64,000 nt of DNA. It comes from Tethya wilhelma (Eukaryota; Porifera; Demospongiae; Tethyida; Tethyidae). The stretch is taken from assembly GCA_964030475.1 (NCBI GenBank), contig CAXIPT010000004.1, forward strand, positions 1,030,385 to 1,094,384, written 5' to 3'. The translations under genes and the position numbers were made by a program. The notes beneath the pieces are model-generated. The model was given only the letters and a program-made list of their open reading frames with translations, made no database searches and was not told where the DNA came from. Of this stretch, positions 1-55,508 are shown piece by piece (position 1 is the stretch's first letter; every line of letters starts with the position of its first letter).

Positions 1-1759
1 CATTAAGTGAGAGCATACATGAGGCAAATAGAGCAGCTGCTGGAAGAGATGAAATGTCTTCCCAGTCCTCTAGCTCTAAAACCAAACTCAGGATGAATCA
101 ACCAGGAAAAATATTGAATTCTTTCCCTGAAGGTGGAGGTAGGTTGAAGAGTATACGTAGAGGAATTGATTGTGTACACTGCATATACTGCAATTTAATG
201 TCATTATAATTGAAGGTTTGTCAATAGCAGTTATATAGGAGTAAGAGAGAATAATGCACGATTGAATACAGCCTTCTCATGGCAGTTAAGGAAGGTCTCT
301 GCATGCACCCCGTTAAACATTGCATTACCTAATGCAATGCGAACAAATCACTAGGCAACCCGCACCATGCACATTATCGATGAGGTTATCTTTAATTTAC
401 AGTCACGAGTAGGAGATAGTCACCTATGCTCTTCAAAAATCAAGGCTATGATACGCTAATATATAATATGACGTCATAAATTACACATAAAACGACTACC
501 GTAATCCTCTGCACGTGATACACATGTGCCGAGGCTTAATTAATCTACCAGATGACCAATAATTATTAATAATAATGTATGGTGGAGCTAAATCACCAAA
601 TTTAAATTGCCCAATCATACTAAAATGCAAATCCCCCAAATTATAAACCCACCAAATTTATCTGCAATACTATAATAAATTATATGGTATACCATTAATT
701 ATGTCGCAATGATTTACTCACAATAAAATGCATGCAGGTCACGTTCTAGGTACTTCCAAGGACTCCCCTCCTCTCTCCACTCAAACTACTCAACCTCAGC
801 CAACCTCCAATGATGCAGCTTCTGATGGAAGTAGTTCTTCCTCTTCACCCACACAAAAATGGGATCGTTCCAAGGCACATGCCTTGTTGGATCGACTTGA
901 GAAGGAGCGTAAACTGCAACAGGAACAGTCAATAAGCAGTCCATCATCAACTCAACCTCCAAAACAAAATAATAAATCTGGTCCAAAAGAGAGAGCATTA
1001 TTAAGAGAAAAACAACCTTTGAGTAAAGATTCTGACTCATCTAGTCAATGCCCACCAACCCAACTGAGTGTCACGGAAACTACCCTTAAAGCATCACTAG
1101 TAACTGTTGACAAATCAGCTACTCCAAAAACTTCACGTTTTCCAGATATTGAGATATCTGAGGATTGTGAATCAGGACTTTTTGAAATGATAGCAGAAAA
1201 GGTTAAAAAATGGGAATTTCTTGGTCGTTCCTTGAACCTTGAAGATGAGCTGCTTGAAACCATCGACAAGAATAATCACTTCAGAGGAGAAAAGTGCATG
1301 AAGATGCTATTTGAATGGAAGAAGGAGTTTGGACATCAAGCAACATACGCTAAACTTAAAGGAGCACTGAAGAATACCCTTCGTGAAGACTTGCTTGAAG
1401 AGCTTGAAACAATTATCCCTGATTCAATAAGCCTCACAGATATGAACATTAATAGTAAAGAGTACCAACTTCAGCTCAAATCTGACAGACTTTCTGAAAC
1501 TGATTTGGCAAGAATCAAGGAAAGTTTTCAAACTAGTAAAGATGACGGCTTGAGCACGGCCATCGTGACAATGTCATTTTTAAGTAGTCCGTCTGAAGTA
1601 AAAAATGAAGGGCCGCCTTGTTCAGTGTGTTGTTATAGTTTTACTGTTAATTTGTGTGAAGAGAGTTGTGTGAGTATTGTAGAAGCTTTGTGTTCGTATG
1701 CTGCTGTTATGAAGCATGCTAATTCTGTCTTGTTTTCTGTGCAATATTCTTTGTTATAG
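1..1759 (+). CDS. Death-domain protein, 3' part (paralog of the gene at 59588-63600)
   Basis: Two exons are visible: 1-138, which continues upstream of the window, and 738-1759. The donor follows G138 and the acceptor precedes 738, and the phases match. The first part is low-complexity Ser/Pro/Gln sequence with a conserved helical patch (WDRSKAHALLDRLEKERK). The middle carries a death domain from about FPDIEISEDC to LLEELETI, with the expected Trp and amphipathic helices. After it comes about 100 residues rich in Cys and Ser that I cannot name but that is conserved in the paralog. DD proteins act as homotypic adaptors in apoptosis and immune signalling; the partner cannot be told. Exon 2 is intronless, whereas the paralog spreads the same segments over three exons and has a long extra middle. 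An AATAAA lies near 1982. The DD call is firm, the specific function unknown. Confidence 0.8.
488..538 (+). repeat. Terminal fragment of the 54784-55508 element
   Basis: This stretch of intron 1 of the first gene matches the right end of the element that interrupts the dead-caspase exon. It includes AACGACTACC, CTCTGCACGTG and the terminal GTGCCGAGGCTT. The rest of the intron (139-737) is AT-rich; I see only short inverted patches in it. Confidence 0.6.
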
Positions 1760-2190: not shown

Positions 2191-2338
2191 ATGCATTCTG
2201 GTTCTGGCCCCACCCAGTTTCACGTGCAATTTATAGTACTCGCTATTCTCCAACAACTTGCAACAAGAGAACACGACGAAGTTGATATCATCATGGTTGT
2301 TATAATAGATATAGGTACGTATGACTATGTGCTGTGTG

Positions 2339-2404
<66 letters not shown>

Positions 2405-4566
2405 CATAGATATACTATATATCTATGGTGTGTGTGTGTGTGTGTGTGTGCTTGCGTACATCTTCACACTAGCTACTTGTCACTGTACATGTTGCATGCA
2501 GAGGTAAGTAGCAGAAGGGGTTCTCTCCCCAGCTAAGTATAATTATTATACTATGCCTTATATTGCAGCTCCTGATGATTATTACAAAGTAATATCCTAT
2601 TTGGAGAAATTGGACCACACTCAGATTAGACACCTTGGCCATGTGTTAGGCTTGGATCCAGATCGTCTCGACAAAATGAGTGAATTACCTCGAGAGATGG
2701 TTGGAGCCTGGCTACGAACAGAAGACAATGTGATGGAGAAATCAGGCACACCTACGTGGAACGTTTTAATAAAATCCCTGGAAAAGATTAATCAGAATGA
2801 GCTTGCTGATAAAATTCGTAAGGAAAAGTTCTCGCAACCAAGTAAGTGAGTGTTAGTGCTTGGCCATGGATGGTTACCACTAGCACACTAAGGAATGAGT
2901 TGTAATTGGACAGCACCATGCACAGACCACTAATTAAAGCCATATCCCCTGCAGCTCGCCAAGCTGCATGTTGTCATTTTTACTCAGAAATGCACTCATG
3001 TGCAATAATCTGTTCATGCTGTGTTGTAATTAAATTCCCAGTGTCGGGTCAGTTGTGGAAGGTATAACAACAACAAAAAAGAGAATATCCATATTTATTA
3101 TCATGATAATGGCAGCACTTCACAAAATGGTACCAGCAATCCGTTTTTCTAAGCAATCTTACACTTAGTTGTTCCTAGGCTTCTTCCTCACATTCGAAGA
3201 AAATAAATACAAGGGAGGAGGCTGAGAATGCAGCTAGTTACTATTATTCTGTTTGAGTCACTAAAATATTATTAATGGCAGCAGGCAATTATTATACTGA
3301 GTGCATGTGTCATTATTATAGCACCCTGGTATCATGCTATTGTACATCTCTCTCTATATATATAGAAGTATCATTGGCCGTGATCACTGAGCAACCACAA
3401 GATGTCAAAGGTGAAATTGGCCAAAGAGCAACCTTAAAATGCCAAGCCGAAGGCAGTGGAAAACTCTTGTACAAATGGTTCAAGTCAACCACTCGAGGTG
3501 GTGAAAAATCACCACTGAAAAAGAGCAACGATGGCATACTAGAATTCAACAAGCTAAGTCAACAAGACTTAGGGTACTATACGTGCCGAGTTAAACAAGT
3601 TTTGGATGGTGCTAGTAAATCAGCTCCAACTATTCTAGAATCTGTTACAGTAGAAGTCAGTGTGACATTGACTGAAAATGAGCACTTGGATCACCAGAAA
3701 AAAGGTATACCTATATATATATCGAATACCGCTTAATTTTCGTGGTACTTAACTTTCGCGGTTTTCGCAGATCGAACGTTATCCGCGAAAATTATTCAAC
3801 GAAAAATTGCGTGCTCATATGCGTGCACACACGAATGATATCAATCCGCGAAACTTATTCAACGAAAATCTGCAATAGCGCAATCCGCGAAAATTAAGTA
3901 ACCTCGAAAATTAAGCGGTATACGGTATATATATACCGTATAGCTGGAAATATTGACGGTCAAAAAATTTGACGGTTTGCTCCGCAGAACGTAAAATAAA
4001 AATATTGACGATTTTAAATTTGACGATTTGCGCATGCACATAATACATTCATATACGGCGCCCAAAATATTGGCGGATTTAAATTTGACGATTTGGACTT
4101 TGACCGTCAAACCGTCAAATTAAAATTCCCGTCAATATTTCCGGCTATACAGTATTCATACAGTATAGGTACATTCCACAAGAGGTACAAAAGCATTAAA
4201 ATTCCATCTGATTTTCATGTGATATAATTGCATTCCATTGAGAATGTGTTAAATTGGTGACTATGTGCTACACTGTCAGAAATAGGTGTAATTTAATACC
4301 TTTTTGGGGTCTCCAAAGTAATGTTTAAGTTTTGCCCTCCTGGAGTGTTATAGAGCACCCCTCAAAATTCACTAGAGTGTTACTTAGCCTCAGCTATTCA
4401 ACATTCTGTAATGTAGCTGCACGCCACCTTTAATAATGTGTCAATTTCATGTTGAAAATTCAGTAAAAAAACGTACTGCATAATTTGTTTCTATGATCTC
4501 GATCTCCAGAGTCTTTCTCTTGACAAATGTCCAGAGAGTTGCTGCTTGTAGCTATGTATACCTGTT

Positions 4567-4610
<44 letters not shown>

Positions 4611-6755
4611 TGCTAAGCAACAGTAGTAGTTAAGCAAGTTTATATGCATTTTAAGTGTTTTTGCATATTTGGGGTGAGCCTAAGCGAGCCCCCTCTTAGT
4701 AGTGTCAGTAACATTAAAACCTGTGAAAGAAACAAGAAGGAGGTCCCTCTAACAAATTCTAGCAACGATTACTAAAGGTTAAAGAGAATGGCATTACTAT
4801 TAGGGAGGGTAAAATTAATAACTGTATGGGTCAGAATGGCAGCTCACAGTTTCTGTCTCGTACGTGTTTCCACGCATTTCCTAATAGTATGTAAGTATCG
4901 TGTCAATGGCTGATTGTGAGTCTGAGATGTTCTTCTTTGCTACTGTCTATATTCTAGCTTGTTTTGTTCCAATTGCTGCTATAATATCATTCACCATGCT
5001 TGCAAATATTATAATGCTTGATTATCAGCTAGCTCTACGTGTTTCTCTCCGATTTTTTCAACTTTTCTCATATGGAATTCAGAGAGCAGTGATTGAAGCA
5101 TGGCAGGACCACTCACTAAGCTTACAGTGCAAGACACTGCTAAATAGCTTGCCTGCTGACCACACATGTGTATATTCTTGACATCTCAGTATACCTCATA
5201 CACCAGCATGTTTACCATGCAGTACATATCTGGCCAGGAAGACTGAAAATTGAAAAATAGGTCTATACAAAGAAACTACAGCTGCATAGAAACTTGTATA
5301 TGCATGTAGTCCTATAATAGTTTACAGACCAGACCACTAATGCTCTTCATTATAAACACAATTCTGTCTTATAGATGGTGCATCGTCATCGGATACTGTA
5401 GAATTGGGATTGCCTGATCCACCTCCCAACCCTCCCTCATCATTACCTTGTCAAAAGGTACATCAATGCATGTATATATGTGTACACACACACATGCTAT
5501 AGCTGTTAATATGTTTTACTACAATAGTATTATCATAATAATTGGAATAAGTACATAATAAATTACAATTTTTTATAATATTGGAATAAAGTACTAAATT
5601 TCACATCTCGTTAATTTTGGATTGCAACTATAATATTTAATGTTTTTGGGGGTTTTTTGCTGTTGTGTTCAGGATCAAGCAATACCACATCTCACCGATT
5701 TCAGAAGTGTCACTCCTCTTTCAAAATCGGGATTGGATACTTCTGCTTACGGAATTTGGAGACTGAAAGACATCCATGACAGACTGAATGGAGAGGGCAT
5801 AGTCATAGCTATAATAGACAATGGTGTCAACTATGCTCATGACGCATTCCAAGCAGCAAAGCCATTTTCTAAAGAAGAGAGACGATTAAGTGGAAAACGA
5901 TACCTGCCAACAGGAGGGACTTCAGATAAATGGGGGGTTCCGGAGAGTGGTGACACAGCTAGTCACGGAACCATGGCTGCTTTTATTGCTGCTGGGGAGC
6001 CATATGGTAATGTCCAGAGTAGAGGGGTTGCCCCTAAATCAACTCTATGGATTTGTTCAGTTGGGAAGGATTACGATGAAGATTCTATTATCAATACCCT
6101 CAAACATTTGATCAAAATAAAGAAGTCGGAGAAACCGGAATGGAAGAAATTTTCACCGGATATCGTTTCCATGTCATTTGGCTTAGAATACAAACCAACT
6201 GATGCAAATCAAAAGACAATGGCAGAACATCTGAAAACTCTTAGTGAAGAAGGAGTGGTCTTAGTTGCCGCTGCTGGTAATTATGGAAATCTAAAAGGAG
6301 GCATTCAATTTCCAGCGACCGAACCAGAAGTGATTTGTGTGGGAGCTCATGGAAAGGTAGGAGGGAAGATGGAAATTTCTCCTGGAAGTGTTGACTGTTA
6401 TGCTCCAGGAGAAGCTGTGCTACACCCACATGACACTAGTAATACAGGATCATTGAGTAGTTCCGGCACTTCTTGTGCTGCTCCTGCCGTTTCCGGCCTG
6501 ATAGCTCTTTTGCTTCAGTTTTCAGAGCATTACGTGACAGATGAAGAACTAAAGAAAGAATATCGAAAACCTAGTTTCTTGAAACACTTCTTGAGGACAC
6601 ATAAGTTGGCCGGTGATCCTTACGTGCTTGATCCAGTCACCACATTCTTTGAAAAAGAATTCCTTGAATATGAAAAGGAACAATTGAAAAAACAAGTTGA
6701 ACATTTGTCAGCTTGTGCAAGCAAATCCAGCAGTAATCAATTCAATGATAGCTAG
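2191..6755 (+). CDS. Death domain - Ig domain - subtilisin-like (S8) protease
   Basis: Exons 2191-2314, 2569-2841, 3366-3704, 5375-5457 and 5673-6755 splice in frame to about 633 residues. Residues 42-132 are a death domain (LGHVLGLDPDRLDKM, then MVGAWLRTEDN). Residues 133-245 are an Ig domain with Cys in ATLKCQ, the core Trp (YKWFK) and DLGYYTC. After a Pro-rich linker comes a subtilase with the full S8 machinery: Asp322 (IIDNGVNY), His371 (SHGTMAA), oxyanion Asn476 (AAAGNYG) and Ser540 (SSGTSCAAP). I see no signal peptide or propeptide, so a cytoplasmic protease is likely. DD followed by Ig and then a protease copies the order in the paracaspase MALT1, but with a different protease fold. 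The first exon (start at ATG 2191) is the least certain part. Domains and catalytic residues are read directly; the MALT1-like role is inference. Confidence 0.85.
2339..2452 (+). repeat. TG microsatellite in intron 1 of the DD-Ig-subtilase gene
   Basis: Two (TG)n tracts, 2339-2398 and about 2428-2450, are separated by a short AT-rich stretch. The open frames across them are repeat artefacts. Confidence 0.9.
3727..3920. mobile_element. Palindromic MITE, TACCG family A
   Basis: It starts TACCGCTTAATTTTCG and ends CGAAAATTAAGCGGTA. Internally it is rich in CGCGAAAA and its complement. It lies in the intron between the Ig exon and the linker exon and carries no coding capacity. Confidence 0.75.
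3934..4154. mobile_element. Palindromic MITE, TACCG family B
   Basis: Inverted ends TACCGTATAGCTGGAAATAT and ATATTTCCGGCTATACAGTA enclose repeats of GACGGTCAAA / TTTGACGGT. It lies about 13 bp after a family A element in the same intron. The rest of the intron (4155-5374) holds a (TG)n run at about 4569-4603 and no other structure I recognise. Confidence 0.75.
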
Positions 6756-7307: not shown

Positions 7308-10300
7308 ATGATGGATGGAGTGCAGCCTGTGAAAGATAACCAGTGGAACAAACACAGACTGAGAGAACTCACTGGTTGTGCCGTCAATACACCAGAGAAA
7401 GAGTTTCAAGGTACCTGAATATTAAAGGCTGTGTATTTGTAATATTTTGGTACGAATCATACATCAATAGCGGCATAGGTAGTCTGCATGATTATATATA
7501 TAGTCTAGGCTAAATGCCAGCCTGTTACTGTGTAGTTACTAGCTGGAAAGTTATACTGAAAAAATTATGACACTCTCTTTTCACTAATTCTCTAGATACA
7601 AGGATTTTGTTGAAGTTACCAAGCAACTGTTATGTACAGCTGAAAGATGCTGACACTTTGAGTCTAGCAGAACAACTCAATGTTCTTATGCCTGGAACAT
7701 TTGCTCCAAATGAAATACAATTTTTCCGGCAAGACAATGGCGCCAAGCCTGATATGCAAATGCAAAAGTGTACTTATTTTTTAAACAAACTTCAGCTCCT
7801 AACAAAAACACCATCATCAAGGGCAAAAGTTGTTGAATGCCTCTATCTTGGTCTGAGAAATTTGTACGAACAAAGTTGTGATGTGACTGTAGACACCTAC
7901 TACACCATGGCCTGCTCACTTAGGACAAAGGGTATTTACAAATGTGTGTATTGTTACTGTTACAATGTCATGTGCCTGTGTAGCATGCATGTGTGTGCGT
8001 CATAATGTTCATAAATGAAACTATTGTGTAATGTTGCATGTGAATAGACTCATTCTGAATCAATTTGTAACATTTATACATTTTCAAGTTACATGTGTGT
8101 ACTAATTTTCATGTAGTTCTTAGTTCTCTACGTAAGGGAGACAAGCTACAAAATGAACGAGGTACTTATAGGTCTTACATAATTCCCTTCTCGGTTACCA
8201 CTTTATACTACTCTTAATGTATATACGTAGATCTTGAAGCAATCGTTGCAAACATTAATGGTGGGGAGGATTTTGATCGTGATAAAGCTAACCAGTTGGT
8301 GAGACTCCTAAACATCAATGATGCTCAAATATTCAACAGCTATGGAGAGGTAGCCTTCCAGTGGCTTAAGGAGAAAGGCTCTAAATGTCAGCTTGTTGAG
8401 TTGGTTCTCGCATTGATGAAAAGCCATTTGGGTAGAGTCATGTCCAAGTTACACCCTAGTTGTAAGTTTAGATGTCTATAGAACACTTTAATGGCTTATA
8501 GCTTGTTCAGAGTTCATTCTTGTACTTGTACACTTAGGGAATTCGAAATGGACTCAAATAGTGCATAGCTATATTTGTACACTTCATTCTTCAATAGGTA
8601 TTAGCAACCCCCCTGTTGTCAAGAGATACATACTGAGCTTGCCTTTGGAGGGTCTGAATGAAGTAATAGCCTTCCTGGGTTACACGAGAGACTGTGATGA
8701 AATCAAAGCCCTTGAAGATGCCTGTGTTCACTCTCCTAACATGAAAGCTCAAATGTTTCTCAGGATTTGTCAATTTCCCGACTGTTTGCGTGAAGTGGAT
8801 CAGATTGTTGAGTGTCTGAAGAATGAAGTAGAACACCCATTGCAGAGACAAGGTACATGTACGTACACACGTACAGATATTATGAACGAACTTTTAATGT
8901 TTTTGTTTCTAAATTGTCAGTTTATTTTTCACTTACTTTCAGTTGTACCAAGGAGTAACAGTACTTCAGAGTCTGACCTGACCTCCTCGGTTGCAAAATT
9001 CGTGAGTTTAACTGAGTATTATCATTCTTGTTTGCTACGATGTTCTACACGACCATATAACTTGTGTTCTTTTTTTAGGTTGGAAATGCTACCCAGGTTC
9101 ACCATCACCAGCATATGCATTACCATATCCAGTATGCTGGCCATGGGCCCAACCAAGAGGTGGTACATGCTTCTCCAACACATCCAGGCATTGACGGCAG
9201 GTATGGTATAATATTATGGTTTGTGAATGCACCAAAATTAGCTTTAAAGTTTGTTATGATGTCCAAAGTATTTTTTGCTCAATGGTAGTTATACACCCCC
9301 ATTGTTACTAAATGCACATACACTGTCAACAGTCCCCAATTTAATCGTACTCTATGGCAGCAACAAAGCGAGGCACATCAACCAAAGATAGGACAGCAAG
9401 CGCCTTCAGTGTATCACTTACAAGATGGTAGTGTCCATAATCCTGTGGCAACCAACCCGGTATTGACCAAGGAGCAGCAGTACTCAGATGCAAGTATTAG
9501 TGTGGAGAAGGAGATGGGAACCTCGAGTGGTTCTACTTCCCTTAGTTCACTTGAAACTGACTTTCCAAAACACCCCTCAGTGCCAGCACACAAAGCGGAC
9601 CAAGTAGTACAAGACTCTCAGTTAGCAAATCCTGCAACACATGCACAGTCACCAAGTTTGACACACAAAGCTTATAACGGTTCACAAAATTCACCGAATC
9701 AGCCTGCATTGTCCCCAGAGACCCAACAGATGGTGAGTACCATATGCAAGCCCTTACAAACTGCCTGCCATGTTGTGTGTATATGTAGCAGATACCACAG
9801 ACATCACCTCATCATGTTGTGCTGACTGGACAGGATGGTGGGGAAAGGTATGCACTATCAATTTGTAGCTATGGTAACAAACCTTGTACCCAGTGAACTT
9901 TATAGTTGTGATAAATAAACAAAAGTCACAATGTTATGCTACACACAGGAACAGTGACTCCCTTAGTGGGGAAGTCCAGCAACCACAAACAGTGAGTAGT
10001 GCTAGTTTTTGTTGATGAATGCACAATATTTATTATACTCACATACATGACATTGTACAAGTAAGATGTTACTATGATAATGTATGTGGCCTCTCAAAAT
10101 TAATGTTAGGTTAACTCTGATTTTGATGGTGAGAAATTCTTAATCCACTGCATGTTCAAAGAATGGGACATGGTGGATGCTATGATTGACTCAGCTATTG
10201 GACCAATTCCTATTGAGCAACAGCAGTCTGATGAAAGTGTTAGTTAATTGCCACAGTTGTATCATAATAAGTTAATTTTGAATGCTAAGAATTTTACATC

Positions 10301-10590: not shown

Positions 10591-13500
10591 ATGGATTATC
10601 AGTTCTTCACTACAGAGAAGTCCTAAGTAATGTTGAGTTACTCACTCTCTTGCTGATCAAGTTTCATGATAATAATAAGTCAGTGGATCCTCCCAGTAAA
10701 GTAAGCTATCACATGCACTGTGATCCTACAATGCATACCATAATTAATGCCAAGCTTGCTTAATGACAAAAATTATTGTAGTAAAGTCATTATTGTGATA
10801 AACACGCACACACTATTAACACTTCAAGCAACATTATGTTACTCCATTACTGCAAGCTATCAATGACTTTGGTGAGAGAGCCTACCCAGCCGTTGAGTGT
10901 TTGTTAAAGTATGATGCTTCAGCAGACGGACACAAAAAGGTTATACATTAGCAGAACAAAACAGTAGGTACAGTGTATTCATAGTGCTTGTTCATGATTA
11001 CAGGCACATTCTCGACCTTTGACCCTGTCAAGTCAGTTAGGATCACTGAAGTTGGTGAAACTGCTGGTTGGGTTTGGTGCTGACATGAACATTCAAGACA
11101 AGGAAAGCAACACCCCTGTCCTTGTAGCTTGTAAAGAAAGTCGATGGGAGGTTGTTAGATATTTGCTTGACCAACATAGAGTAAAGCTCAACCTATCAGA
11201 CAGGACTGGTACAACTCCACTATTTGAATGCATAGCAAAATGTCAGTACGAATTGGTTGAAAAGCTTCTACAGTTAGGAGCACCTGCCAATTGCAGTAGG
11301 GTAAGTATAGCTAGCATGCTTTCTAATTTTGATTGAAAGTAACAGTACATGAATGCATGAAGTTTCATTTGTGTTATGCTTTATCCACTACTCCCGTAGC
11401 ATTATTGCAGATTACTGGACAGCACTCATATGCTACTATTTTAACTTTACAATTATTTTTGTACAGCATCGTTCCGGTTATGAATCAATGGGCAGTGTTG
11501 AAGAAACCCCTCTAGCACTTGCATGTGCTCTTGGTCTCATAAGATATGCTCAAGTCCTTCTTGATTACGGGGCAAAGATTAACTATATGTGTTCGGTATG
11601 TCAATCAAGTGCCAAGATACCAATAGCCTATAATTGTTATCTCGGTGCCAGTGTGAAAGTTGCCAATTCTTTCAAATCGATCTTATCCTTTTATTTTGAA
11701 TTCTGTTTCCCCAGGGTACGGTTCCACCTATTGGGTTTGCAATAATTGGTCGCAAGAATGAGATGGCTAACTTTCTTCTAAACCAATCATCACTTGATAA
11801 ATCGATGAGTGGGCTCACTGGTCCTGTAGTGATTTCTGTTAAAACCCAAAACTTTGAATGCACCAAGATGCTTCTAGACTGTTTAGGTGGACCTCAAGAG
11901 GCACTAACTAAAGCTACTGACTATGGGCTAACAGATTTGAAGAATCACGTTGAGACATACTTGGCTTTCAATCCACACAATGAGGTATAAAAATTATATC
12001 ATACGTACGGTAGTACGTATAGTAGGAATGGGCCGACTGTCCCATAGACACAATACAAAATGTTTATGCTCATAAACTTTCAGAGAATGACAGCTAAGCC
12101 TTCAGACATGGATTAAAGCCTCCCTTGGATAGTTTTCTAAGTGCATACATCAACAAAACTCACAGAAACTCTCTAGAGCACTCAGGAGAGAGCGCTGGCG
12201 GGAAGCCAGAACAGTGCAATTTTGTTTTCTTCTTCCTTCCTAACTGACAAACTTGAACGCGATTTCCAGACAAACAAAAGGCATTCAGCCAGCTTTAACT
12301 GTACAGTGCAACTTGACTTCATCCGAACTACGTCCTTTTATACTCGTTTGGTGCCTAAAAGCTATGTAACAAACAAAATCTAGGCATTTTAAAACTCTGA
12401 TATAAAATACTGTACTTGCATGTAGCCATCTTGATGTAGGTAAAGGTCGTCAACAGACCACGTGGTTTGCATGCATATAATGCGCATGCGCATCCAGTGT
12501 ATATACTTGAAAGCAGTAGCTCATGTTTTTTGTAGAGACTGACCAGTCTCTGATAGCTTCTACTCCATTGCAATTGAGCACCTTAGTGTTGGAAAAAGTG
12601 AACAAACAAGTATAGTAAAAATTTCAAAAAAATTAGCAGTGTAGGAATGGGCAGTGCTGCAAAAAGAAAGGAAACAAGGCTGGGACTTTAAATGTCGGCA
12701 CATGACTACTTCATTTTCAAGCTCATATAGGTTGCCTGTATACCTTCTAATTTATTTATGACTTAATTGGAATCAGAATTTTAATCATGATTCTATAATT
12801 ATTATAATAATATCAATGGGCATGTACATGTATAGCATTGTTTGAACCATATCAATATTTATTTTATATGACTGGATACATGAGGAATTGAAAATGAAAA
12901 TGAAGTAGTCATGTGCCGACATTTAAAGTCCCAGCCTTGTTTCCTTTCTTTTTGCAGCACTGCCCATTCCTACACTGCTAATTTTTTTGAAATTTTTACT
13001 ATACTTGTAATTATTATTAGTTAAAATGTATGTACTGCTGAATTAGTTAGAATCAATTTTATATACTGCCCATAATAAAGACAAATTTTGGATCAGCTGA
13101 TGTTCATTCAAGCAATCCTCAAGGCACGTTACAGAATTCCAGATCTGTGCATTCAGCATTCATGCAATCTGGACTTGGTCAAGATTATGAACTACGAGCA
13201 CAGTCAGATGATGTCTTGAGGCAGTTCTGTGAGATATGTATGAAAGTAGTGAAGAAAAAGCTTGACGTAAGAACCGACAATCGCACTTGTTGCAATGGTT
13301 ATGTAGTATTTGCATAGATTAATGTTTGATCCACATTATCTATTATATTTTCAGCTGAATGTACTTGCTGAAGTTACAAAAGCCGAGTGTATGGAAGTGT
13401 CTAACTTCTTTCGAAGATGTGCCAGGAACACTCAAGTAAGTATTAGCTATGTTGAGTTCAAACAAATTTAATGCATGGGCATTAAATTGTCTCATCAAAT

Positions 13501-24478: not shown

Positions 24479-27400
24479 TCAAAAGAAATCATCAAAAAAG
24501 TACACATTTCGTGTTGTTTGCTCTTCCAGCGTTGGCAACTGGTGTATCGTTTTGGAACTCACATTTTGTGCTGTCTTCTTTTGAATGTCACTGAGAGTGG
24601 CCTTAGGTGCATCTTCACACAGCGTTTTACACAGTTTGTTGATGTAGAATGTGCCAGTATCAGGCCACCTCCAAGCCTTTTCACCAGGTAGAGTTGCATA
24701 GTTAAATACGAAATCAGCACGATCATGCATCACATCACAATCTGGTTCAGGTTGGGGATTTTCTTCAGGCCCATCTGGCTGGGGCAATTGACGGCATGCT
24801 GATATAAAGAAGAGCTTTGGTTTACGAAGAAGCTTTTCACACTTTGAGAGCTTTGTTTCCAATGAGTCGTCCTTGGTTCGAAGCACAACCTTCTTGCTAT
24901 CTGACCCATAAATGATGTTGTTACTTCCGTGAGAGAGAATGCAGCACACAAAACTGTCATCTTCAGGTTCAATCCAAGAACTAATGTCATCAAATATTCT
25001 CTCAATATCTTGTGATGAAATATCACGTCGAATTTCCACACGATATCCAAGAAAGCGAAACGTTTCAACTAGATTGTATTCATCACGATTTGTTCCACTG
25101 CGCTGATTGTGCTGAGAGTCAATAAAATTCTCATTGTTTAACACAAGGCATAACCCACGCCCCTTCTTGAGTGATCGCCTCTTCATCGGATAGTTTCCCA
25201 CCAAAGAACCAGGTAATTGAACAGGATGCGAATCCAATTTGATCAGGGTTTTGTCATCTTTATCCAGTTTCAATTTAGGCTTATGTTTCATTGTGCGATC
25301 GGTCTTACTGGTAAGCTCACGAGTGTATGGTACATACGTCTTACTGTAGTCAGGACCATCTGATTCAGGCTCGGTATTAGGAGGGTTCCAGTTTTCTGGC
25401 ACATCCATTGGCACTGGTTCTTTCTTCGATATTACAGTTTCTGGATCATAATCTGGGGCAACTCTTTTCTCTGGTTTCTGCATGTATATTTGGTACAGAT
25501 ACATTTAGAGATACATTACATTTACTCTATGAAGACACCAATGATGCTTAATAACCCTTAATTGATGCTCTAGCAATTGCAACACATCACTGGGTAACAA
25601 TGATTACAATATACTATATACCACATGATAATTATAGCTACTTCTCTGGTTGCCATGACATTAATTGAATGTGTGATCATACACTGCAAACCTAGGTCTA
25701 AAAACCTAGAGGGCTAATTCTGATTATTCAAAGTACTATACTTGTATGGGGGCACATTATATAGCTGCTAAAAGCTGAGTCAGCAAAACTTATAATTGGC
25801 TTACGTATGCAAGACTTAATAATTATAATAATTATTTATATAATATAACTCTTTCATGCCTCCTTGGGCATGCATAAAAGTGCAAATGAAGTCAACTATA
25901 GCAATACCTGCTTCTCGTAGCTTGTTTGTGTTGACAAATGCTTCTTTAAGATATTCCTGCAACCTGGGGTAAGTTTCTTTACCCCAGATCGGTCTTTCAT
26001 TTGAGTCAAATCTTTTTCTTCTAATCCCATGAAAGCTTCATTACAAGTGAAACCATTCTCTGTAGTATATAGGAAAGTACAAATCACTAATTAGGGTCTA
26101 AAAATGAAGCTTAAAAAAAGGTCAATAAAATGCCCAGATAACAGTTTCAGTAAATGTCCATGTTGCATGTTCAGTAAATGTTTCTTTGTTGCCAGAAAAC
26201 TTTCTATGTTGCCAAAAAACTTTCTATGTTACCCGAAAACTTGTCAATTTGAGTCGGAAGGTTAGTATCTGTTATCGTTTCAAGGTTCTTGAGACGGCAA
26301 ACTTTCTCCGTGTCCTAGACAGAAATTAGTTCACTAGCCATTGTAGTACACAATTCAACCTTTCTTTATGCAACAAATTACTTATTGCATCATGGGCTCA
26401 AGTGCCACACGGTTTTATTGGCACAGTAGTGCCGTAGAACCCTCGGGCACTACGTCTGTCGTCACTACTGTGCCAATAACTTCCGTGTGGCACTTGAGCC
26501 CATGATGCAATAAGTAATACATTATTGTATCAAAATCAAAAGCTTTTAGTAAGTCCTGACATACCCTCTAATATCTTTTGATCCTTTGCTAGAATCTTTC
26601 CTTCCTTGATAAGTATCAAAAACGGATCGGATTCTGTTTCTGGTTGGTCAGTTGCCCCGTCTAGCTGTTCTTTACTAGTAGTTTTCTGTAAAAGATGATA
26701 AGTCAAAGCGTTCACACAGCCCACAGTGAGCTTGTTTTGGCCAGATTCATCTTCCATCTTCAACAAATCTTGTTCCGTCAAATCCATAAATGCATCATTG
26801 CATGTGATTCCATTTGACTCTGCAAAAAAAATAAAATAAATAAAAAAACACCCCCCGCCGCAGATACCACATAGCGGGAAATTTTCGGGGGTGTAAATTT
26901 TCGTGAAAAGCCTAGACCACGCTTCAGAAGAAAATATTCGTGGTATTAATTTTCGTGACTCAAGTATCTCCAACTTACAGCACTTGAAGGTCTTGTGACT
27001 GTTTATCTGCTTTGGTATACTATAACATGTAGAATACTATTCTAGCTAGATATACTAGCTATTTAGACTGCAAACTTCTTGAGAAGACAGGCAAAAGACA
27101 GAGAATTAATGTCTTTGGCAACGTGCGTGTGGCGAGTATCGTGACCTTGACCTAAGAAAAAAAATTTCGTGACTCGGGGGTTAGTCACGAAAATAACGAA
27201 AATTTGCACCCCATGGAAATTTCCTGCTATACGGTATTGTACCTTTTAGAATGACCTGATCTCCTTCTCCAATCTTACACCGCCTCATAAGTAACAAAAA
27301 GGGATCAGATTCAATTTCACCGGGACTTGCTTTGGAGTCTCCTAAATACAGTTAAAACAAAAAGCAGTCATCAAAAAATTTCTTGATAACTAATGTAGGG

Positions 27401-38193: not shown

Positions 38194-41100
38194 ATAAACA
38201 TGTACACAAGTACTGAATTGATGAATACCTTATCAATGTGAGTGACCTTTGCACCTTTGGCTATCATTCTTCTCACTCTACTGATGTCTCCATGTCTGCA
38301 CACATAATGGAAGGCTGTCTTCCCTTCCTGGAATAAGCACAATACTACAGAAGGTCATCCACAATATATTTCATGAATATCATATTGTGGGAATCTTATC
38401 ACAAACTGGCTTAATTTAATTTTAATAATAATCTTTCCAGCCTTGAATAAGATATTCATGGTTCAATATCTTTCCCAGTATCAATAGGTAAGTACATTAA
38501 GACTTAAACCCAGGCTCATGGGCATAGAGGCATATATTATGGTATTGACTTACATAGCTCTCAAGCTCTTCACCCAGTATCTGCATCGAATCTAGACAAC
38601 TGTCCACAAGTGGCCAATTTCCCACAATACATGTATCAAGTAGAGCAACTTGATCATCATAACTCTACAAGAACAAACATCATTGAATGAAGCACACAAG
38701 CAAAATGTATTAGAACTTACTGGTGGTTTGAGTACTATCACTGGTTGTACTGCAGTAGCCTCAGATTGATTTTGTGACAGCTGTGGCTGTTTTGGCTGTT
38801 TGCTGGCTTCAGATTTGGACTTTGGCTCTGGCTTCCTAGATTATGAAAACAAAAGAAGTCCACACAAACTTAGAATTTGGCTAACTTACCCTTTTTGCAT
38901 CTTAGATGTAGTTTCTTGTCCTGTTGCTACAGATTGTAACTGCTGACAGTGAAAAAAAGGTTGAGTTTTAAGTTACTCGACTTACAATGTAAAACGTGTG
39001 ACGTACCTTTTGTTTATTGTCTTTTGGACGTGGTATCAGAACTTCATGATCAAGAGCAGGTCTAGTTCCAGACACATCTTCTTCATTTTCATCTTTAGAA
39101 GTATCCATCTTCTTTTGAGGGGAATTGACCTTCTGGGCTTTTTCGTCAATTTGGGATTTTTGGTTGGGATAATCTTTGTTTGCCGGGTCTGGTATCTTCT
39201 TCTTTTGGTGAGTACCATCTGCAGCTAGATCATACTGATCACCAATGTTAGTGATTATCTTTTGTTCCTTATTCCATGGGTTAGTGGCATTTGAAGCAGT
39301 GCTATTATAAAATGGTGGTGTCAAACATGTATAATTATATGAGAGACATAAAACTAATAATTGATTACCTTGCCACTAAGTTAGGCTGCTTTATTGAAGT
39401 TGATTTCTTTTTTAGGTGACCATAGATTGGAACAGTCGAATTGCTTACATTTTCTAAATAAATATTCAGCGTATATCAGGTTATAAGCAAAGTTTTGTGT
39501 GTCTGTCCATGTGTGTGTATGTGTGTCACAGGAGTTCACTTGTAGTCAAGCGACCTCAAGTTATATAATGCTAGCCTCGTTCCCAGGCTCTCACCTTTGA
39601 CTTTACACTCACCTTCCTTACCGTGAGTGTAAGGTCAAAGGTGAGAAACTGGGAACAAAGCTAATAAAATGCCATTTCTTCTCTAGATTGTGGAGAATGC
39701 AAAGCTATGAAAATGTGCCTAGAGAGCTAGCTTAGATAATGCTAGCCTAGGATAAAATTACTGGTGCTATAAGTATGGCTGACTGTTTTTGAGATCGCTG
39801 ACAAGGCTTACCAGTGGCATCCGTATCCGACAAAGAAGCATGATAGAGTAGCAAATCTTTCACAAAAGAAGCGTAGCAAGGGGAGAGCTTTTGCTTCTAG
39901 AAGTCTGCTTTTCTGTCGCTGTACACGAAAAACAGCTAGCCAGATAACGAGTTTCTTTGTCAACTGACACAAAAATGGTGGAAGTCCGAAAAGCTTGTTG
40001 AGACATCACGTAGTGAGGTAAATTGCTGAGCTGGCCAAATTGCAAAGAGGAGCAGTGCATACATGCATGGTTGCCTTTCACTGCCCAGTTATTACTATGC
40101 ATCTAGCAGTAAACATCGGTATACTTCATACACAAGCAAGGAGCATAGCGAGCAAAGCGAGCCACACTCCTTGTATAGTATTCTCACATAATAATTATAC
40201 AGGTATACTTACTTGTAATTTTTCCTTGGTTGAAAACACCACTGGCGATCTCTGAGACAACGGAACCCATTTCTTCATCACAATCGGGAAGACGAAACAC
40301 TCGAAGGAACATTCTCGGTTGAAGAGTTGACATTGGAGAGGAATTCTCAACATAGTAGATCTCTGGGTCTGTGTCTTTGTAGCCTAAGAAATAGGCCAAT
40401 GACTTCCAAGTCCGACCAGCAGATGGTAAATTCATCACATAATTTTGGAAGCGTGGAGAATTGCTTCTGTCTGTAGGGAATAAAAATTGGCTGACTATGG
40501 TGTTGTGTGTGTGTGTGTGCATGCACACATGCATCAACACTGAGTATACTCTGATAGCATCCCCCTCTAAACCACACAGTTGTTTATAAGCTATGAATAC
40601 ACTTACAGACAGGATACAACCCTGAAGATAGTTTCCCCAAACCACTCTTCACCAGAGCCAAGACCAGCTGTCCTATGGTACACTTGGCACCACCAATGTC
40701 CAACCAGTGATGACAGATCTGTCTGTAGCTTGTAAAGGTTTGTGCAGAGCTTTGTAGGCTGAGGTTTTCCAACAAACGTGTTGCTTTGGATAGCTCAAAG
40801 TCAGATTCGACTTCTGGAATAGATTCAAGGGCAGTGCTTAATTCAGACTCTGGACCTATAAGACATGAGTACATTTGTAATAATGATCAAAATCACACTA
40901 CGTATAGACAAGAGCACTCTTGGTATAGAATACTCCATTAAAAATCCAAGTGCAATTACAAAAATAATTGCACAGTTTGTACAGACAGTTCATAACTAAT
41001 ATGATTAACCGTACTATAATATTATTTTTATAATGATATTGAGCGTTTGTGCTTACTATTACTATCAGAGCTTGTCCACTTCTTGGTAGCTGCAACTGAA

Positions 41101-41755
41101 TATAAAAGAGAAAAATACAATAAAATCAAAATAATTCACCTATTTGTAACACTCTAACCTTCTTTAAGAAGCAACTGAGCAATAACATAATGATTGTTAG
41201 TTGTGACACTTGATGCTTCTTCATAGGAATCTCTTAAGGTCAGGTAAAGTGCTTCGAAACATTTCTTAGCAGTAACAGGTAGCTTTGCTCGCTCAATCAG
41301 AGTAATATGTAAATGATCTTGCTTTGACATCCCAGACATCCACTCCCTGTCTGCTTGTAAGTACATTTCACGTTCTCTTGGAGATAGAATGTCTCTGTCC
41401 ATCAAAAGGGTTGCTAAGCTTTTAACACAAGTGTGCCTTAAGTGTACAGCCATTTTTTTCATAATTTGGACCTGCACTGGTTCTTGTCCAGTTGAACCTG
41501 TAAACATGACATAATTTGTAGAAAGATTCACTCTGTAGAGAGTTCATAGCTATGTGCCACCTTTTAAAAAAACTTACCAGAATCACTGACAGCTAATGAA
41601 GGCAGCTCAAGTCGACGGAACTCATCCCATTCATGACTTTTCTCCTTTGTAACAACATCAGGTATACTGAAGGATAGTTGACTACACGTTACTGGGCGAT
41701 CAAAGGGTTTTTTTAACTTGGGTTTCTCTCCAGGATCAACACCAGTACCATCCAT
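30489..41755 (-). CDS. CARD-like / DD-like / duplicated ankyrin block / TKL-type protein kinase
   Basis: My reading gives 38 exons, all in phase, for 2,071 residues. The start is ATG 41755. Exon 41497-41159 is CARD-like (residues ~60-172), 40855-40607 DD-like, 40470-40213 a third death-fold-like domain. After Lys/Gln-rich linkers (39453-38721) come ankyrin repeats (38327-35874) and a helical region (35676-35096). A second copy of both follows (35062-33698 and 33577-32624). Then come Ser/Pro linkers homologous to the ZU5 gene (32375-31699) and a kinase (31378-30489): glycine loop GFGRYGSVE, lysine in [25 protein letters not shown]. The kinase looks active. It is a paralog of the plus-strand kinase at 7308-16411, but its N-terminal block is closer to the ZU5 gene at 17678. 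A single N at 35074 sits in a 33-base intron at the duplication joint, so assembly error there is possible. Confidence 0.83.
32913..35062 (-). repeat. Internal tandem duplication, unit 2 (10 exons)
   Basis: Exons starting 35062, 34847, 34689, 34485, 34212, 33982, 33577, 33373, 33204 and 33002 repeat unit 1. Introns are shorter and lack the MITE and the R2 copy found in unit 1. Confidence 0.85.
37165..37448. repeat. Dispersed repeat R2, right copy (inverted)
   Basis: Reverse complement of parts of 12007-12660: CCATTCCTACAC near one end, and TATGGGACAGTCGGCCCATT with TACTATACGTACTACCGTAC at the other. It lies in the intron 36969-37935. Confidence 0.6.
37491..37750. mobile_element. TTAA-flanked MITE, AGGAACTGTGTC family, copy 2
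   Basis: Same termini as 28749-28990, again flanked by TTAA (37487-37490, 37751-37754). A CT/TA microsatellite has expanded beside the left end. Confidence 0.85.
38049..38191. repeat. Long TG/CA microsatellite on a splice acceptor
   Basis: (TG)n with CG interruptions; on the coding (-) strand it is (CA)n running into CACAG before exon 38046. Matches the position of the CA tract at 10543-10588 in the paralog. Confidence 0.9.
39571..39664. repeat. Hairpin with GCCTCGTTCCCAG-type ends
   Basis: Arms CTAGCCTCGTTCCCAG and CTGGGAACAAAGCTA enclose a second inverted pair (TTTGACTTTACACTCA and complement). A similar short hairpin is at 47906-47956; partial ends occur near 22411 and 61016. Confidence 0.7.
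39715..40175. repeat. Dispersed repeat R1, copy in an intron of the minus-strand kinase gene
   Basis: Similar in the same orientation to 56262-56795 and inverted relative to 16529-17095. Shared tracts include TGCCTAGAGAG, AAGAAGCGTAGCAAGGGGAG and CAAAGCGAGCCACACTCCTT. Confidence 0.65.
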
Positions 41756-43579: not shown

Positions 43580-46500
43580 TTAATTGTTCAATTGTCCTCT
43601 CAGTTGTTTGTAGTCATATTCAACCAATTTGCTTTTCAAAAAGGTGACTGGATCAAGTACAATGTTTGACGGTGGCTTTACATGTCGTACAAAAAATTGC
43701 TCCAAGTTACGAAATTTTCGATACATTTCTTTTTTAGTCTGATCTGTCTCATATGTCTTTGAGAACTGAAGCAAGAGAGCTATTAGGCCAGCAATGGCAG
43801 GAGCAGCACATGAAGTACCAGAACTACTCAATAATTCTTTAGTACTAGCATGGTGAGGGTGTAGCACAGCATTTCCCGGAGCGTAACAGTGAAGGTGTTC
43901 CGGAGGATTAATGTCCATCTTTACTCCTTTTTCGTCATGAGCTCCTACACGAATCACTCCTGACTCGCATGCGGGAAATTGCAAACCTCCTTGAGAACTT
44001 CCATAGTTACCTGCAGCAGCAACAAAGACTACTCCTTTCGCTATCAGAGTTTGGATATGTTCTGCCATTTTCTTTTGCTTTACATCACCAGGGATGTATT
44101 CCAAGCCAAATGACATTGAAACGATATCTGGTGAAAACTTCTTCCATTCTGGATTCTCTGAATTCTTTATTTTAATCAAATCTTCGAGGGCATTGATAAT
44201 AGAATCTTCATCATAATCCTTCCCAACTGAACAAATCCATAGAGTTGATTTAGGGGCAACCCCTCCAGTCTTAACATCACCAAATGGCACTCCCCCAGCA
44301 ACAAAAGCAGCCATTGTTCCATGACTAGCTGTGTCACCACTCTTCGGAGCCCCCCATTTATTTGAAGTCTCTCCTGTTGGCAGGTATCGTTTTCCACCTA
44401 ATCGTCTCTGAGACTCTTCTTTAGAAAGTGGCTCTGCTGCTTTGAATGCATCATGAGCATAGTTGACACCATTGTCTATTATAGCTATCACTATGCCCTC
44501 TCCATTCAGTCTGTCGTGGATGTCTTTCAGTCTCCAAATTCCGTAAGCAGAAGTATCCAATCCCGATATTGAAAGAGGAGTAACGCTTCTGAAATCGGTG
44601 AGATGTGGTATTGATTGATCCTGAATACAACAGCAGCAAAAAAAATAACATTAAATATGTTGTGATCCAAAATTAATGAACTGTTAAATTTATTATTTCT
44701 TATTCCAATAATAAAAAATTATAATAATTATCATGATAATAATATTATTATTGTAGTAAAACATATCAGCAGCTATAGCATCTGTGCGTGTACACATAAT
44801 ATACATGGCATTGATGTACCTTTTGAAAAGGCAATGAGGGAGGGTTAGGAGCTGCAGGTGGACCAGGCAATCCCAAATCTACAGTATCCGAATAAACGGT
44901 ATTTTGTTTAAAATGAAATCTGATTTATAGCATATAATATTGCATTTAACCCTTTACCAACCCATGATGGCATATTTTATCGTGAGACTAATAGTTACAT
45001 TTATAGCTAAAAATCAGTAACAAATTGGCGTGATTAACAATTAACGTCACAATCAACTCACACAACTTATTACATGACACTGTATGGACACATCTATCAA
45101 GCAAATACGAGGATACAAATTTTTTTAGAAACTTCACTGCTTCTATTAAATTTTGTTAAAAGGGTTAAGGTCTGGCCCACAAGCTGTTATATATGTATAC
45201 ATGATGTCAAAATAATTTGTTATAATACACTAATTCAAGTCATGTTAATCATACTTAACGTACCAACAGATCGACTTTGAGCATGAAGTGTGTCCAAGTA
45301 TTTCTTCAATAGTGGTCCGCCAACAATGGTAAGCTTCTTCTTTAAATTTTCTACAGCTTGTGAATCCAACATTAGCAAAAGTTCATCACTGGTGATACCT
45401 TCACCTGAATGGTACAAATTAATACATACGATCATCACAATAACAGTTACCTGTAACTACCGTATATAGCTAGAAATTTTCGAGGAGTATAAATTTCTCT
45501 GTTTAAATTTCACGGATCGTCGGCAATCTGCAAAAATTTTACTCACGAAATATTCAAAATCGTATTGCAATAATATGGGTGGGGCTGATCTATCCTCGAA
45601 AATTACCATATAGCGGGAAATCTTTGTGGGGGGAAAATTTTTTTGCGAATTTCGCGGTTTGGCAGCTTTCCGCGAAAATTTCCCCCACGAAATTTGTAAG
45701 GTATGTGGTCGTCACGTAACATTAAGATGCAATCCACGAAAATTTTCCCCGCGAATTTCTATTCAAGACGAAAACGCAAAAATTTTCCCCACGAAATTTC
45801 CTGCTATATGGTAAATCGCAAAATGTTTGGCGATCGCCTTTCCGCGAAGAGTTTATTCCTCGAAAAATTCTATATAGCTATACGGTATAGAGCTCTAATA
45901 AATATTATTATAGTATACCTTCCAAAGTGTTTCTATCTCTCTCATTAAGTTTGCATTGTTTTAATTTCTCCATGAAAACCTCCTCTGGATTTGGCTCAAT
46001 ATCTAATTATATACAATGAAGAAATAAACGATTATTATTATACAATGTCATCATCATGTACACACATGTGATGCACAGTACATATACAAGCTAATAGCTC
46101 TTCATAAATCAAGTTTCCACTCGTGTATTGGTGTGAAATACATATTCATAATTATTACACAAAATGGCTGAAGGAACCACCTGATAACTTCAATGTATAC
46201 GACTATGTTGTATTCTCTAGAGGCAGTACATGCTCTGCCTCAGTAGGCAAACTGCATGGCTCGTGTCAAGGCTTTGCTCCACCCGTTACTATTACTTTAA
46301 TAGAATTATCTGTCTAAGAACGCTCTGCCATCCATTAACTATCCTTCATAACTATTAAAACTAAGCTGTTAGCATTTCTATGGGCATACTTTACTACTCA
46401 TTTTGACATGCGCATACCATTACTTATATGCAGTGCGGAGCAGACCCGACCTCAGCGTGAGTCGAGAATCAACAAACCTCAATATATTTCTCAAGCAAGT

Positions 46501-51975: not shown

Positions 51976-54783
51976 TAAGAGCCCACAGCTCAAACGCCAT
52001 GGCCAACAAGTTGCAAAAAATCGCGAACGTTAAATACGCGCATGCGGAAAAAGCGGCAATCGGCCCTAAAGGGTTAAACTTTTCACACAAATCAACAGTA
52101 AAACTAAACAATGCAAACTCGCTCAGTATTTGCAATGTAAACTTATTATCTATATAATGACATATACACACAAAATTTACTGAAAGAGGGACCGGTAACA
52201 TAATAATATATTTTGTGGCAGTGCAAGTTCCACAATGTAGGTACGTAGTTATCATTGATTAATATTGTTGGATATACCTAACAAAATGTGCATCCAAATT
52301 AATTAACTCAAGCTCAGCTTGAGTCTGACACAGTCACTATATAGCTGAAATTATAGATCATAACGGAAAAAGGATTTCGGATTCAGAACATTTAAATTTT
52401 AATCGAGACTCATGTTCCAGTTTCAGCAGCCCAGGCTCAGCTTCTCTATCAATTGATCACATTCTATAACGGCAATTTCTTTCTCGAAAAAGTCCATTGG
52501 ACTAAGCATAACTGAGTCACCCCCCTTTCGATGTTCTTTAAGAAACCTTGTCAAGAAACTAAGTTCTTGAAATTTCTTTCTCTTCACTTCATTCTTGATG
52601 TACTTCTTTGAGAACTGAAGTAGGAGAGCTATCAGGCCAGCAATGGCTGGAGCAGAACACGAAGTGCCTGTACTGCAAATTGAGGTTTCATTATACCCGT
52701 AGAATCTGGGTGGATCACAGCTTCTCCCGGTGCAAAACAGTTAATATCTTCCGGAGCATTGATGTCCATCGTGTAACCTCTTTGGTTGTGAGCTCCAACG
52801 CAAATAACTTCTGGTTCACTTGCTGGAAATTGAATGCCCCCTTGCAGTTTTCCAAAGTTCCCAGCAGCAGCAACCATGACAACTCCTAGTTCCCTGAGAC
52901 GTTTTATGAGACGGGCCATTTCCTGTTGGTTGCTATCATCAGGAGAGTATTCAAAGCCAAATGACATTGAGATGATATCAGGTGCAAAGATATTCTTTTT
53001 GCATGGTCTTCTTCCTGATCAAATCTTTGAGGGCATTAATAATGGCAAGCTTATTGTACACACTTATTCCAACGGAACAAATCCAGAGAGTTGATTGAGG
53101 GGCAACCCCTCCACTCTTAACTTTACCAAATGGCTCTCCCACGGCAACAAAGGCAGCCATTGTTCCGTGGCTAGCTCCATCACTGCTAGTCTCCGGTGCA
53201 CTCCATTGGGCAGTAGTCTCTCCCTCGTTCGGAAGGTATCTGCGTCCTCGCAATCTTTTTTCGAAAAAGGCTGTCTTGAATGCTTTGTGACTGTAGTTGA
53301 CACCATTGTCTATTATAGCAATTACGATGCCTTCTCCATTCAATTTGCCATGGATTTTGCTCAGCCCCCAAATTGCGGACGCGGAAGTATCAATTCCTGA
53401 CATTGTAAGAGGAGTGGCTCTTCTGAAATCGGTATTACGATACTCCAAAGGCATTGGTGGCTGCAACATGTGTATGCAATTGGTCACAATGAAGTGTGTG
53501 GAGCAATTGTTTCAAAACATTGGGCATAATATTATAATAATCACACAGTCAGTTTAATCTACTTTAATACTTGAAAAACAACAACTGTTATACACTATTT
53601 AAACTCTACCTGAGATAGTAAGTCTGGTCCAGGATTTGGATTCAGACTAGATAGTGGTTGTGGGGGCATTTGACGTATTTGTTGGACTCTGTGGTTTTTG
53701 GAGTCCACCTATGAATAGGTTAATTGATCAAAAGAATATGTAAATTTACAAAATTAATGCTCATAATTCCACACTGGCTGTGGGCATGTTGGTGCATGAT
53801 TAAGGACATGCATGCATGGCTTTCGAATTTTCCATGCAGTATAATATATCCATGGCTCTTTACGTACAAGCAGACCAGATATATAGCCTCCAAACTGTCC
53901 AAAGGCTATATCACATAGAGAATAAAAGTAGAGTTACTTAAAATTAATACAAAACTATATAACACTTATAGGAAATAAAGCTAAAACAAAGGATCTATAG
54001 AACACAACAATGACTATTGTACAACCATTTAAAGACATTAACACTTAACTAGCTAATAACCTAAATACAAACAAACATTAGCACCTAAAGCTATAAAGTA
54101 CAAAGTATAAAGAAAACAATACACAAAAGACTATTCATGCATACAATAAACAAAAGAGTTCTATTCAGTACTATTGATATTACAATTTGCGGATTTTATT
54201 TTGGTGGTAGTGCATGCAGCAATACACATATTCTGTGTATGTGCTGTGCAAAGATGACTGTCTTGCAGATTAATAATTTTAACAGTTACCAAATCTGCCC
54301 TGAATGTTAATTAATCTGCCAAATTTTTGTAATAATCACAACATTATTCTTATTATACACATACCTGTTAGTGTTTTTTCCTCAATTGTTTCCTTACAAA
54401 GATCATAGAAAAAGAAAACACTTTTCGTTAGTCGTGAAAAGTTGACCACAACATCACCAAGACGACCAGAATATGGAGACACCATAACTTTGTCTGCCAC
54501 CAATCGTTGAATCTCGTCAAGTGTAGATTGTGGGGCATGCTTGCAGAGCATCTGACAGAGAGTGCCGATGTAAGGTGTTCCATCGAGCTTAGTATAGCTG
54601 AATGAAAAATCTGGAAGATCAAGGTCAAGCAGATCTGGTTCGGGAAAATTTCCTGATAAAAAGAAAAGCTTTGGCTTGCCAGAAAGACTCGTACATTTAG
54701 ACAGTGTTGTAGTTAGGGATGGGCTGTCAAAACCATCCTTTTTTGCTCGCACTAGGGAATGAAAGCACCACTGTGTGGCGCAC

Positions 54784-55508
54784 AAGCCTCGGCACCCTGG
54801 CTAGTACACATACACATACACTGTGTAAAAGAGTGTATTATACCTACATGTATGGCCCAGGTGTATCAACAAAACTAATCTACCTATCATAGTATAGTAC
54901 TGAGGCCCAAGTTAGCCTATAGTCCCCAGGCTCCTCAGCTTAGTAGCCAGTCAGGCATGTAGTGAAGCTCACTGATACAAACAACACATCTAAGCTCAGT
55001 ACTAGATCATATAATTTATGACACAGTTCTGAACTTCAGCCTCCTCATCTGCTCATCATTGCAGTATGACCAAGCAACACTGCCAACAGTAAGAACAGTA
55101 CTAGATCATACATTCACAGTTCTACAAAGTGTTATTTCACTTGAGTTACTTACCTGACAAAGCAGCTATCTGATTTTCTATGCAAGCTCAACTGTATTTC
55201 TAGATAACGCACATCACATGGGGCGTGATCGATGGGCGTGGTTTCGAAGCCTAAGCGCTCAGAGATGCACAAAAGCCTCAGATCTCAGAAACTACAGCAT
55301 TTCGCAAGATCCTACACGACAAATTTCAAGATAATTTTGATTCATGAACGTAAGTACCTTCCATTTGGACTCTACAGCTGCCGTTCTTCAGATAACTTAG
55401 TAACAGACGGACACACACACACACACACAAAACGACTACCATAACCCTCTGCACGTGCTACCATATTAGCCCTACATTATCTATGGTGCTACGCACGTGC
55501 CGAGGCTT
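54784..55508. mobile_element. 725 bp inverted-repeat element inside the caspase-like exon
   Basis: Ends AAGCCTCGGCAC and GTGCCGAGGCTT. It has no ORF with recognisable transposase and a CA run near its right end. Coding similarity to the caspase gene stops at one end and resumes at the other. I see no target-site duplication. A fragment of the same family is at 488-538. Confidence 0.7.

Follow-up and report, generated by a model that had tools for sequence, protein, structure and literature searches.

The window analysed here is a stretch of 64,000 nt (C4:1030385-1094384) from a genome of 124.6 Mb in 204 contigs, and all searches of the species' own genome covered that assembly. Five exons with GT-AG borders throughout are predicted on its forward strand (Table 1), and their lengths give junction phases of 1, 1, 1 and 0. 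Joined, they read as one uninterrupted frame that codes for 599 aa if translation starts at the ATG at 2293 and for 633 aa if it starts at the in-frame ATG at 2191, in agreement with the exon coordinates and splice sites of the original prediction. The predicted 599-aa protein carries, in order, a death fold, an I-set immunoglobulin (Ig) domain, a linker and an S8 subtilase, so that the proposed succession of death domain (DD), Ig and protease was recovered as an exon array. When the joined protein was compared with Pfam, Peptidase_S8 (3.7e-27) and Ig_3 (1.8e-10) were both above cut-off; this search of the spliced protein thus upheld two of the three domains that had been proposed, but not the death domain, for which the best match (PYRIN, 0.11) fell below cut-off.

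Table 1. Predicted exons and S8 copies in the window (positions are those of the 64,000-nt stretch).
Feature	Position	Strand	Remarks
First coding exon	2293..2314	+	ATG at 2293, alternative in-frame ATG at 2191; ends in phase 1
Death-fold domain exon	2569..2841	+	Phase 1-1
Immunoglobulin (I-set) exon	3366..3704	+	Phase 1-1; nearest to Ig1 of the genome's own MALT1
Linker exon, 83 nt	5375..5457	+	Phase 1 at its start, phase 0 at its end
S8 subtilase exon	5673..6755	+	Catalytic Asp/His/Asn/Ser; C-terminal tail helical; stop codon 6753-6755
Intact S8 paralog	43589..44620	-	71% identity; same linker before it (about 44891-44820)
Third S8 copy of the window	52441..53433	-	Frame broken, in three pieces

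The two candidate starts differ in what they imply for the protein. The context of the ATG at 2293, read by eye from the letters, is better than that of the ATG at 2191, and the 34-residue extension that begins at 2191 carries a short hydrophobic run, FIVLAIL, near residue 14. The proposal that the protein has no signal peptide holds for the form starting at 2293; the longer one may carry a signal-like segment. The four catalytic residues that had been named for a complete S8 domain (Asp322, His371, Asn476 and Ser540) are present; that numbering fits the start at 2191, and from the ATG at 2293 they become Asp288, His337, Asn442 and Ser506.

The death-fold domain was the least readily classified of the three. 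Taken alone, it gave Pfam values of 0.0032 for PYRIN and 0.093 for Death, both below cut-off, and a search of the PDB with the DD profile returned one chance-level match and nothing else. Members of the same death-fold family did better, 16 of 36 matching Death at E<=0.1 (best 5.7e-5), and a confident helical model of the domain found its best structural matches among FADD death domains, with an E-value of 0.2 at best when the window copy was submitted to Foldseek alone; the MALT1 death domain entry was absent from the best 50 structural matches listed. We assign the window copy to the death fold because of these family matches to Death and because of the helical model with its FADD-like fold, so that its place in the death-domain superfamily is given by family profile and by model. 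Within this genome it is one member of a large death-fold family, which is likely to be lineage-specific.

The Ig domain led to a specific relative. A search of the genome with the window Ig returned, after itself, C8:4267078-4267296 (47% identity, 3.7e-19), the third-ranked match being at 1.3e-4. At the locus on C8 (L031) this Ig, here called Ig1, precedes another Ig and a C14 exon; in the PDB the pieces of the locus match MALT1 (3v4o, E 2.7e-25), which identifies it as the genome's own paracaspase. In the reverse direction, the window Ig was the sole match to MALT1 Ig1 at E<=0.01 besides MALT1 Ig1 itself. When 20 Ig rows were put into a maximum-likelihood tree, the two came out as sisters with support of 99/97, on the sole starred branch, although the tree program pointed to an unusual letter composition in the window Ig and to long branches in many other rows, and 1 of the 18 comparison loci fetched was dropped for want of a usable frame. 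The two exons, of 339 and 300 nt, are both of phase 1-1. In a sequence search of the PDB, titin and contactins ranked above MALT1 (3k0w, 2.4e-6), and for this reason the link to MALT1 is based on the reciprocal match within the genome and on the tree. From these comparisons of sequence it is likely that the window Ig is MALT1-derived, and the comparison with MALT1, which had been drawn from domain layout, turned out to go deeper, extending to a reciprocal best Ig match, a well-supported sister relationship and shared exon phases. Scans of L031 for MALT1's own death domain, by profile and by phmmer, gave nothing convincing. The assembly has one N shortly before the Ig1 exon of that locus.

In a sequence search of the PDB with the S8 exon, intracellular serine proteases ranked first (7xr8, 3.2e-13) and third (7y6m, 6.9e-11). 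Bacterial intracellular subtilisins (ISP) are thus among its top matches, yet they are distant in sequence, and to our knowledge the ISP family is without signalling domains. A model built from a 7-row input had the subtilisin fold; its confidence was low (mean pLDDT 66.3) and it was used for fold class only. In an alignment of 21 rows, three of them from the public set and 18 from the genome itself, every row kept Asp, Asn and Ser, and His was replaced, by Gln, only in L026, so that 17 of the 18 own-genome rows kept all four residues. By fold and by catalytic residues the domain is therefore an S8 subtilase, with predicted activity. For two S8 copies of the window, the NG86 method gave dN 0.18 and dS 0.36, or a dN/dS of 0.45-0.5. 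Relative to the linker at 5375..5457, the one at 44.9 kb has a 3-nt indel; its donor is conserved and an acceptor is absent at the homologous place.

There are 53 matches to S8 in the genome, of which many represent one exon of a gene that is split; the S8 domain of the window belongs to an expanded clade within them. The 21 loci nearest in this clade were examined (the window copies at 5.7 and 43.6 kb, L015-L030 and L090-L092), the upstream lengths scanned being unequal and short for L090 and L092. An independently supported death-fold exon was found upstream on the same strand in nine of the 21 (window, L017, L019, L020, L025, L026, L029, L030 and L091), the one in L020 lying 6.3 kb from the S8 exon, and Pfam Death was above cut-off upstream in L017, L019, L020, L025, L026 and L091. 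No such exon was found upstream in the other 12 (the 44-kb copy, L015, L016, L018, L021, L022, L023, L024, L027, L028, L090 and L092); L022 and L023, matched by the iterated profile alone, and L021, with a DD-like tail of 17 aa, were not counted. When the iterated DD profile, whose E-values are inflated for loci that had entered it, was run over both strands of 20 loci (L009-L028), seven had a sense match, L022 and L023 sharing one, and none of the 20 had an antisense match. The six more distant S8 loci among them (L009-L014) had no death-fold match at E<=0.01.

The association was also compared with expectation. Among the matches listed (about 300, some of which may stand in more than one list), a death-fold match lay within 6 kb in 6 of 18 loci; 0.13 would be expected if the genome had 300 death-fold exons and 0.52 if it had 1200 (Poisson P 6e-9 to 2e-5). 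This figure is to be read with the facts that the 6-kb limit was chosen after the lists had been seen, that numerous DD exons and the clustering of immune genes could raise the enrichment, and that a nearby death-fold match was the reason for fetching two of the loci, L029 and L030. Without these two, and again among the matches listed, the count was 4 of 16 against 0.12-0.46 expected (P 7e-6 to 1e-3). The array in the window is not a product of chance, because both the S8 clade and its death-fold neighbours recur in the genome.

Other modules occupy the same upstream position. Ankyrin repeats (ANK) and S8 share one uninterrupted, gap-free frame in four loci (L021, L029, L091 and L092), and likewise in L030 except that one base is unknown. 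In L026 a phase 1-1 DD exon, an 83-nt linker and the S8 exon give 499 open codons when joined, and in L025 a phase 1-1 DD exon, a 101-nt linker and the S8 exon give 486, both joins assuming a GC donor (a GC-AG intron) after the linker. Roc/COR-like stretches lie upstream in L028, L015 and L024, below Pfam cut-off, and a ZU5 stretch lies upstream in L016, above it; in L029 the DD is followed by what we take, by eye, to be a PNPase-like region, to which Pfam assigned 0 families. A second DD-Ig-S8 order was not found, a motif search of 20 further loci giving no other Ig. The upstream exons thus vary by locus (death-fold, MALT1-type Ig, ANK, the weak Roc/COR-like stretches, ZU5), whereas the S8 exon is constant, opened by a homologous phase-0 acceptor in 13 of 16 clade loci (read by eye), as is the phase 1-to-0 linker exon where it was traced. 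An S8 cassette that is kept while the sensor or adaptor exons before it change is typical of an effector module. Since ankyrin repeats are an intracellular module, the single ANK-S8 frames, together with the two DD-linker-S8 joins, favour the earlier proposal of an intracellular S8 protease coupled to adaptors, as far as paralogous sequences can indicate.

These results suggested that the five exons probably form one predicted protein in which a death domain would recruit the S8 protease into a cytosolic signalling assembly. The same exons could instead be divided between two adjacent genes: one would code for a DD-Ig adaptor and stop after exon 3, and the other would be an S8 gene whose first exon lies within 3705-5374 or which starts at the ATG at 5640. 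Intron 3, of 1.67 kb, spans exactly that interval and has a polyadenylation-like AATAAA at 3995 as well as three candidate first exons running from an ATG to a phase-1 donor (1.8 expected per interval); neither the polyadenylation nor the first-exon scan was informative. The ATG at 5640 is in frame just upstream of the S8 acceptor, but it sits inside the pyrimidine tract of that acceptor, and the 44-kb copy is without an equivalent Met. That copy consists of linker and S8, and neither DD nor Ig was found in front of it, and it is because of this copy and of the in-frame ATG that we allow the two-gene reading some weight. Against it stand the acceptor shared by 13 of 16 clade loci and the paralogous cassettes, which are preceded by DD or ANK and are twice open in frame, and we consider it unlikely.

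Another reading is that of a secreted or endosomal Ig-subtilase, which would start at the ATG at 2191; its Ig would be extracellular and its helical domain would not be a signalling death domain. The hydrophobic run of that longer form would suit such a protein, an extracellular location is common among both Ig domains and S8 proteases, and the PDB search with the Ig ranked titin and the cell-surface contactins above MALT1. The better context at 2293, the assignment of the helical domain to the death fold by model and profile, the S8 paralogs in frame with ankyrin repeats, and the sister relationship of the window Ig to an Ig of MALT1, which is a cytosolic protein, all argue against secretion, and make it very improbable. 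It could also be that the gene gives one transcript whose protein acts mainly as a scaffold with vestigial protease activity, as might be suggested by the Gln in place of the catalytic His in the DD-S8 paralog L026 and by a dN/dS that is only moderate; the retention of the full catalytic set in nearly all own-genome S8 rows counts against this, and we give it just as little credence as secretion.

If, as we favour, the death domain, Ig and protease are parts of one protein, the closest animal counterpart is MALT1, in which a death domain is followed by Ig domains and a protease. The window gene has the same order, its death domain preceding an Ig that is homologous to MALT1 Ig1 and has the same exon phases. 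It differs in that the protease is S8 and not C14 (no C14 match up to E 1), that its gene model has one Ig where MALT1 has more, with no Ig after the protease, and that its DD comes from a large family of this genome. As the C14 domain is absent it is not a member of the MALT1 family, and its product is likely to work like MALT1, bringing a protease into a death-fold assembly, without being MALT1.

Outside animals, fungal NLR effector domains include Peptidase S8 (PMC4986451), and the fungal subtilisin-like protease HET-Q2 likely cleaves the gasdermin HET-Q1 (PMC12881547). In the portions of these articles that bear on the matter, the fungal S8 is likewise intracellular and coupled to NLR or repeat modules (S8 NLR, and S8 with ANK, WD40 or TPR), but no death domain or MALT1-type Ig is joined to it there; in the present genome the joining of S8 to sensor repeats is seen in the ANK-S8 paralogs, not in the window copy. 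Fungal S8 sensor proteases that fire gasdermins are the closest parallel known for the window system. We refrain from proposing gasdermin as the substrate here, an exon-wise search of the genome with one model (PF04598) having given no match at E<=10. A lineage-specific death-fold expansion with variable modules has a precedent in Amphimedon, where arrays of death-domain/TRADD-N are joined to caspase, PNPase, ankyrin and other modules (PMC8195603); S8 is absent from the module list in section 10 of that article, whose main text uses neither 'subtilisin' nor 'subtilase'. The gene content of the present genome, with its MALT1 paracaspase, very large death-fold family and death-domain arrays like those of Amphimedon, would suit a sponge.

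The constancy of the linker and S8 exons suggests a portable effector cassette that could accept any phase-1 upstream exon, and on that model the window gene would have arisen when two exons, one for a death fold and one for a MALT1-derived Ig, were placed in front of it. An upstream sensor would seed a death-domain assembly in which homotypic contact gathers several S8 units, perhaps aided in their pairing by the helical C-terminal tail. Cleavage may then be switched on by proximity, or by an interdomain segment leaving the cleft, and the outcome, as for the fungal S8 sensor proteases, would be that a host substrate is cut during immune or cell-death signalling. On balance we lean, by a modest margin of confidence, towards the view that animals possess a second protease class in death-fold signalling that is unrelated to caspases: in this lineage a linker-S8 cassette would have been shuffled behind modules of DD, ANK, Roc/COR or ZU5 type and, in one case, behind a DD and a MALT1 Ig, giving a MALT1 analogue with the protease fold swapped.

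The proteases recruited by death folds in animals that we know to have been described are caspases and MALT1, which share one fold, and among the matches listed from open-licence literature we recognised no description of a death-domain S8 protein in an animal. If the proposed architecture is true, the recruiting arrangement can outlive its enzyme, so that unrelated proteases can be plugged into death-fold signalling, and animal death-domain signalling would join the fungal logic of S8 sensor proteases firing cell death. The S8 clade would, moreover, provide a defined set of genes with which the question of the substrate can be approached. A protein search for large S8 proteins elsewhere, with an ANK-S8 frame as query, gave only one weak match, of 1418 aa. 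The three S8 proteins of the public set share 38-46% identity with the query and up to 56% with the fetched S8 frames, and from these identities the clade likely exists in other species.

Each of the two intact S8 copies of the window has one of two homologous stretches downstream of it (7571-9208 (+) and 40187-41543 (-); 31-45% identity), and neither stretch contains a Pfam family above the cut-off; they are likely to be a duplicated gene pair. A further block, found at 590-2228 and at 58367-62921, is inverted and in part duplicated, and each of its two sides contains a death domain gene (table below).

At L026, another locus of the genome with an S8 of the same clade, the DD-S8 paralog (7621-8610) has Gln at the catalytic His position and is likely to be a pseudoprotease. 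At L029, also a locus of this clade, a single ORF (4990-5724 (-)) located directly upstream of ANK-S8 combines a death domain with a nucleoside-phosphorylase-like stretch, which was recognised by eye and had no Pfam match.

A death domain was looked for at the genome's own MALT1 locus (L031) and was not found; an N is present in the sequence a little upstream of the Ig1 exon.

Several C14 matches were present on contig C4 at 0.91-1.06 Mb, and the S8 gene shares the window with a full caspase domain. Two caspase-like remnants are positioned upstream of the frame-broken S8 copy (52441-53433 (-)).

Coordinates of features in the window and of the MALT1 locus
Feature	Position	Strand	Basis
Paracaspase MALT1 locus L031	C8:4262500-4271400		
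Death domain gene, one side of inverted block	713-1756		Pfam Death
Death domain gene, other side	59591-60931		Pfam Death
Ankyrin exon	10998-11333		
Full caspase domain	24499-25159	(-)	Pfam Peptidase_C14, 1.8e-41
Caspase-like remnant, first piece	54339-54800	(-)	C14, 7e-4, below cut-off
Caspase-like remnant, second piece	55510-55965	(-)	Recognised by eye only
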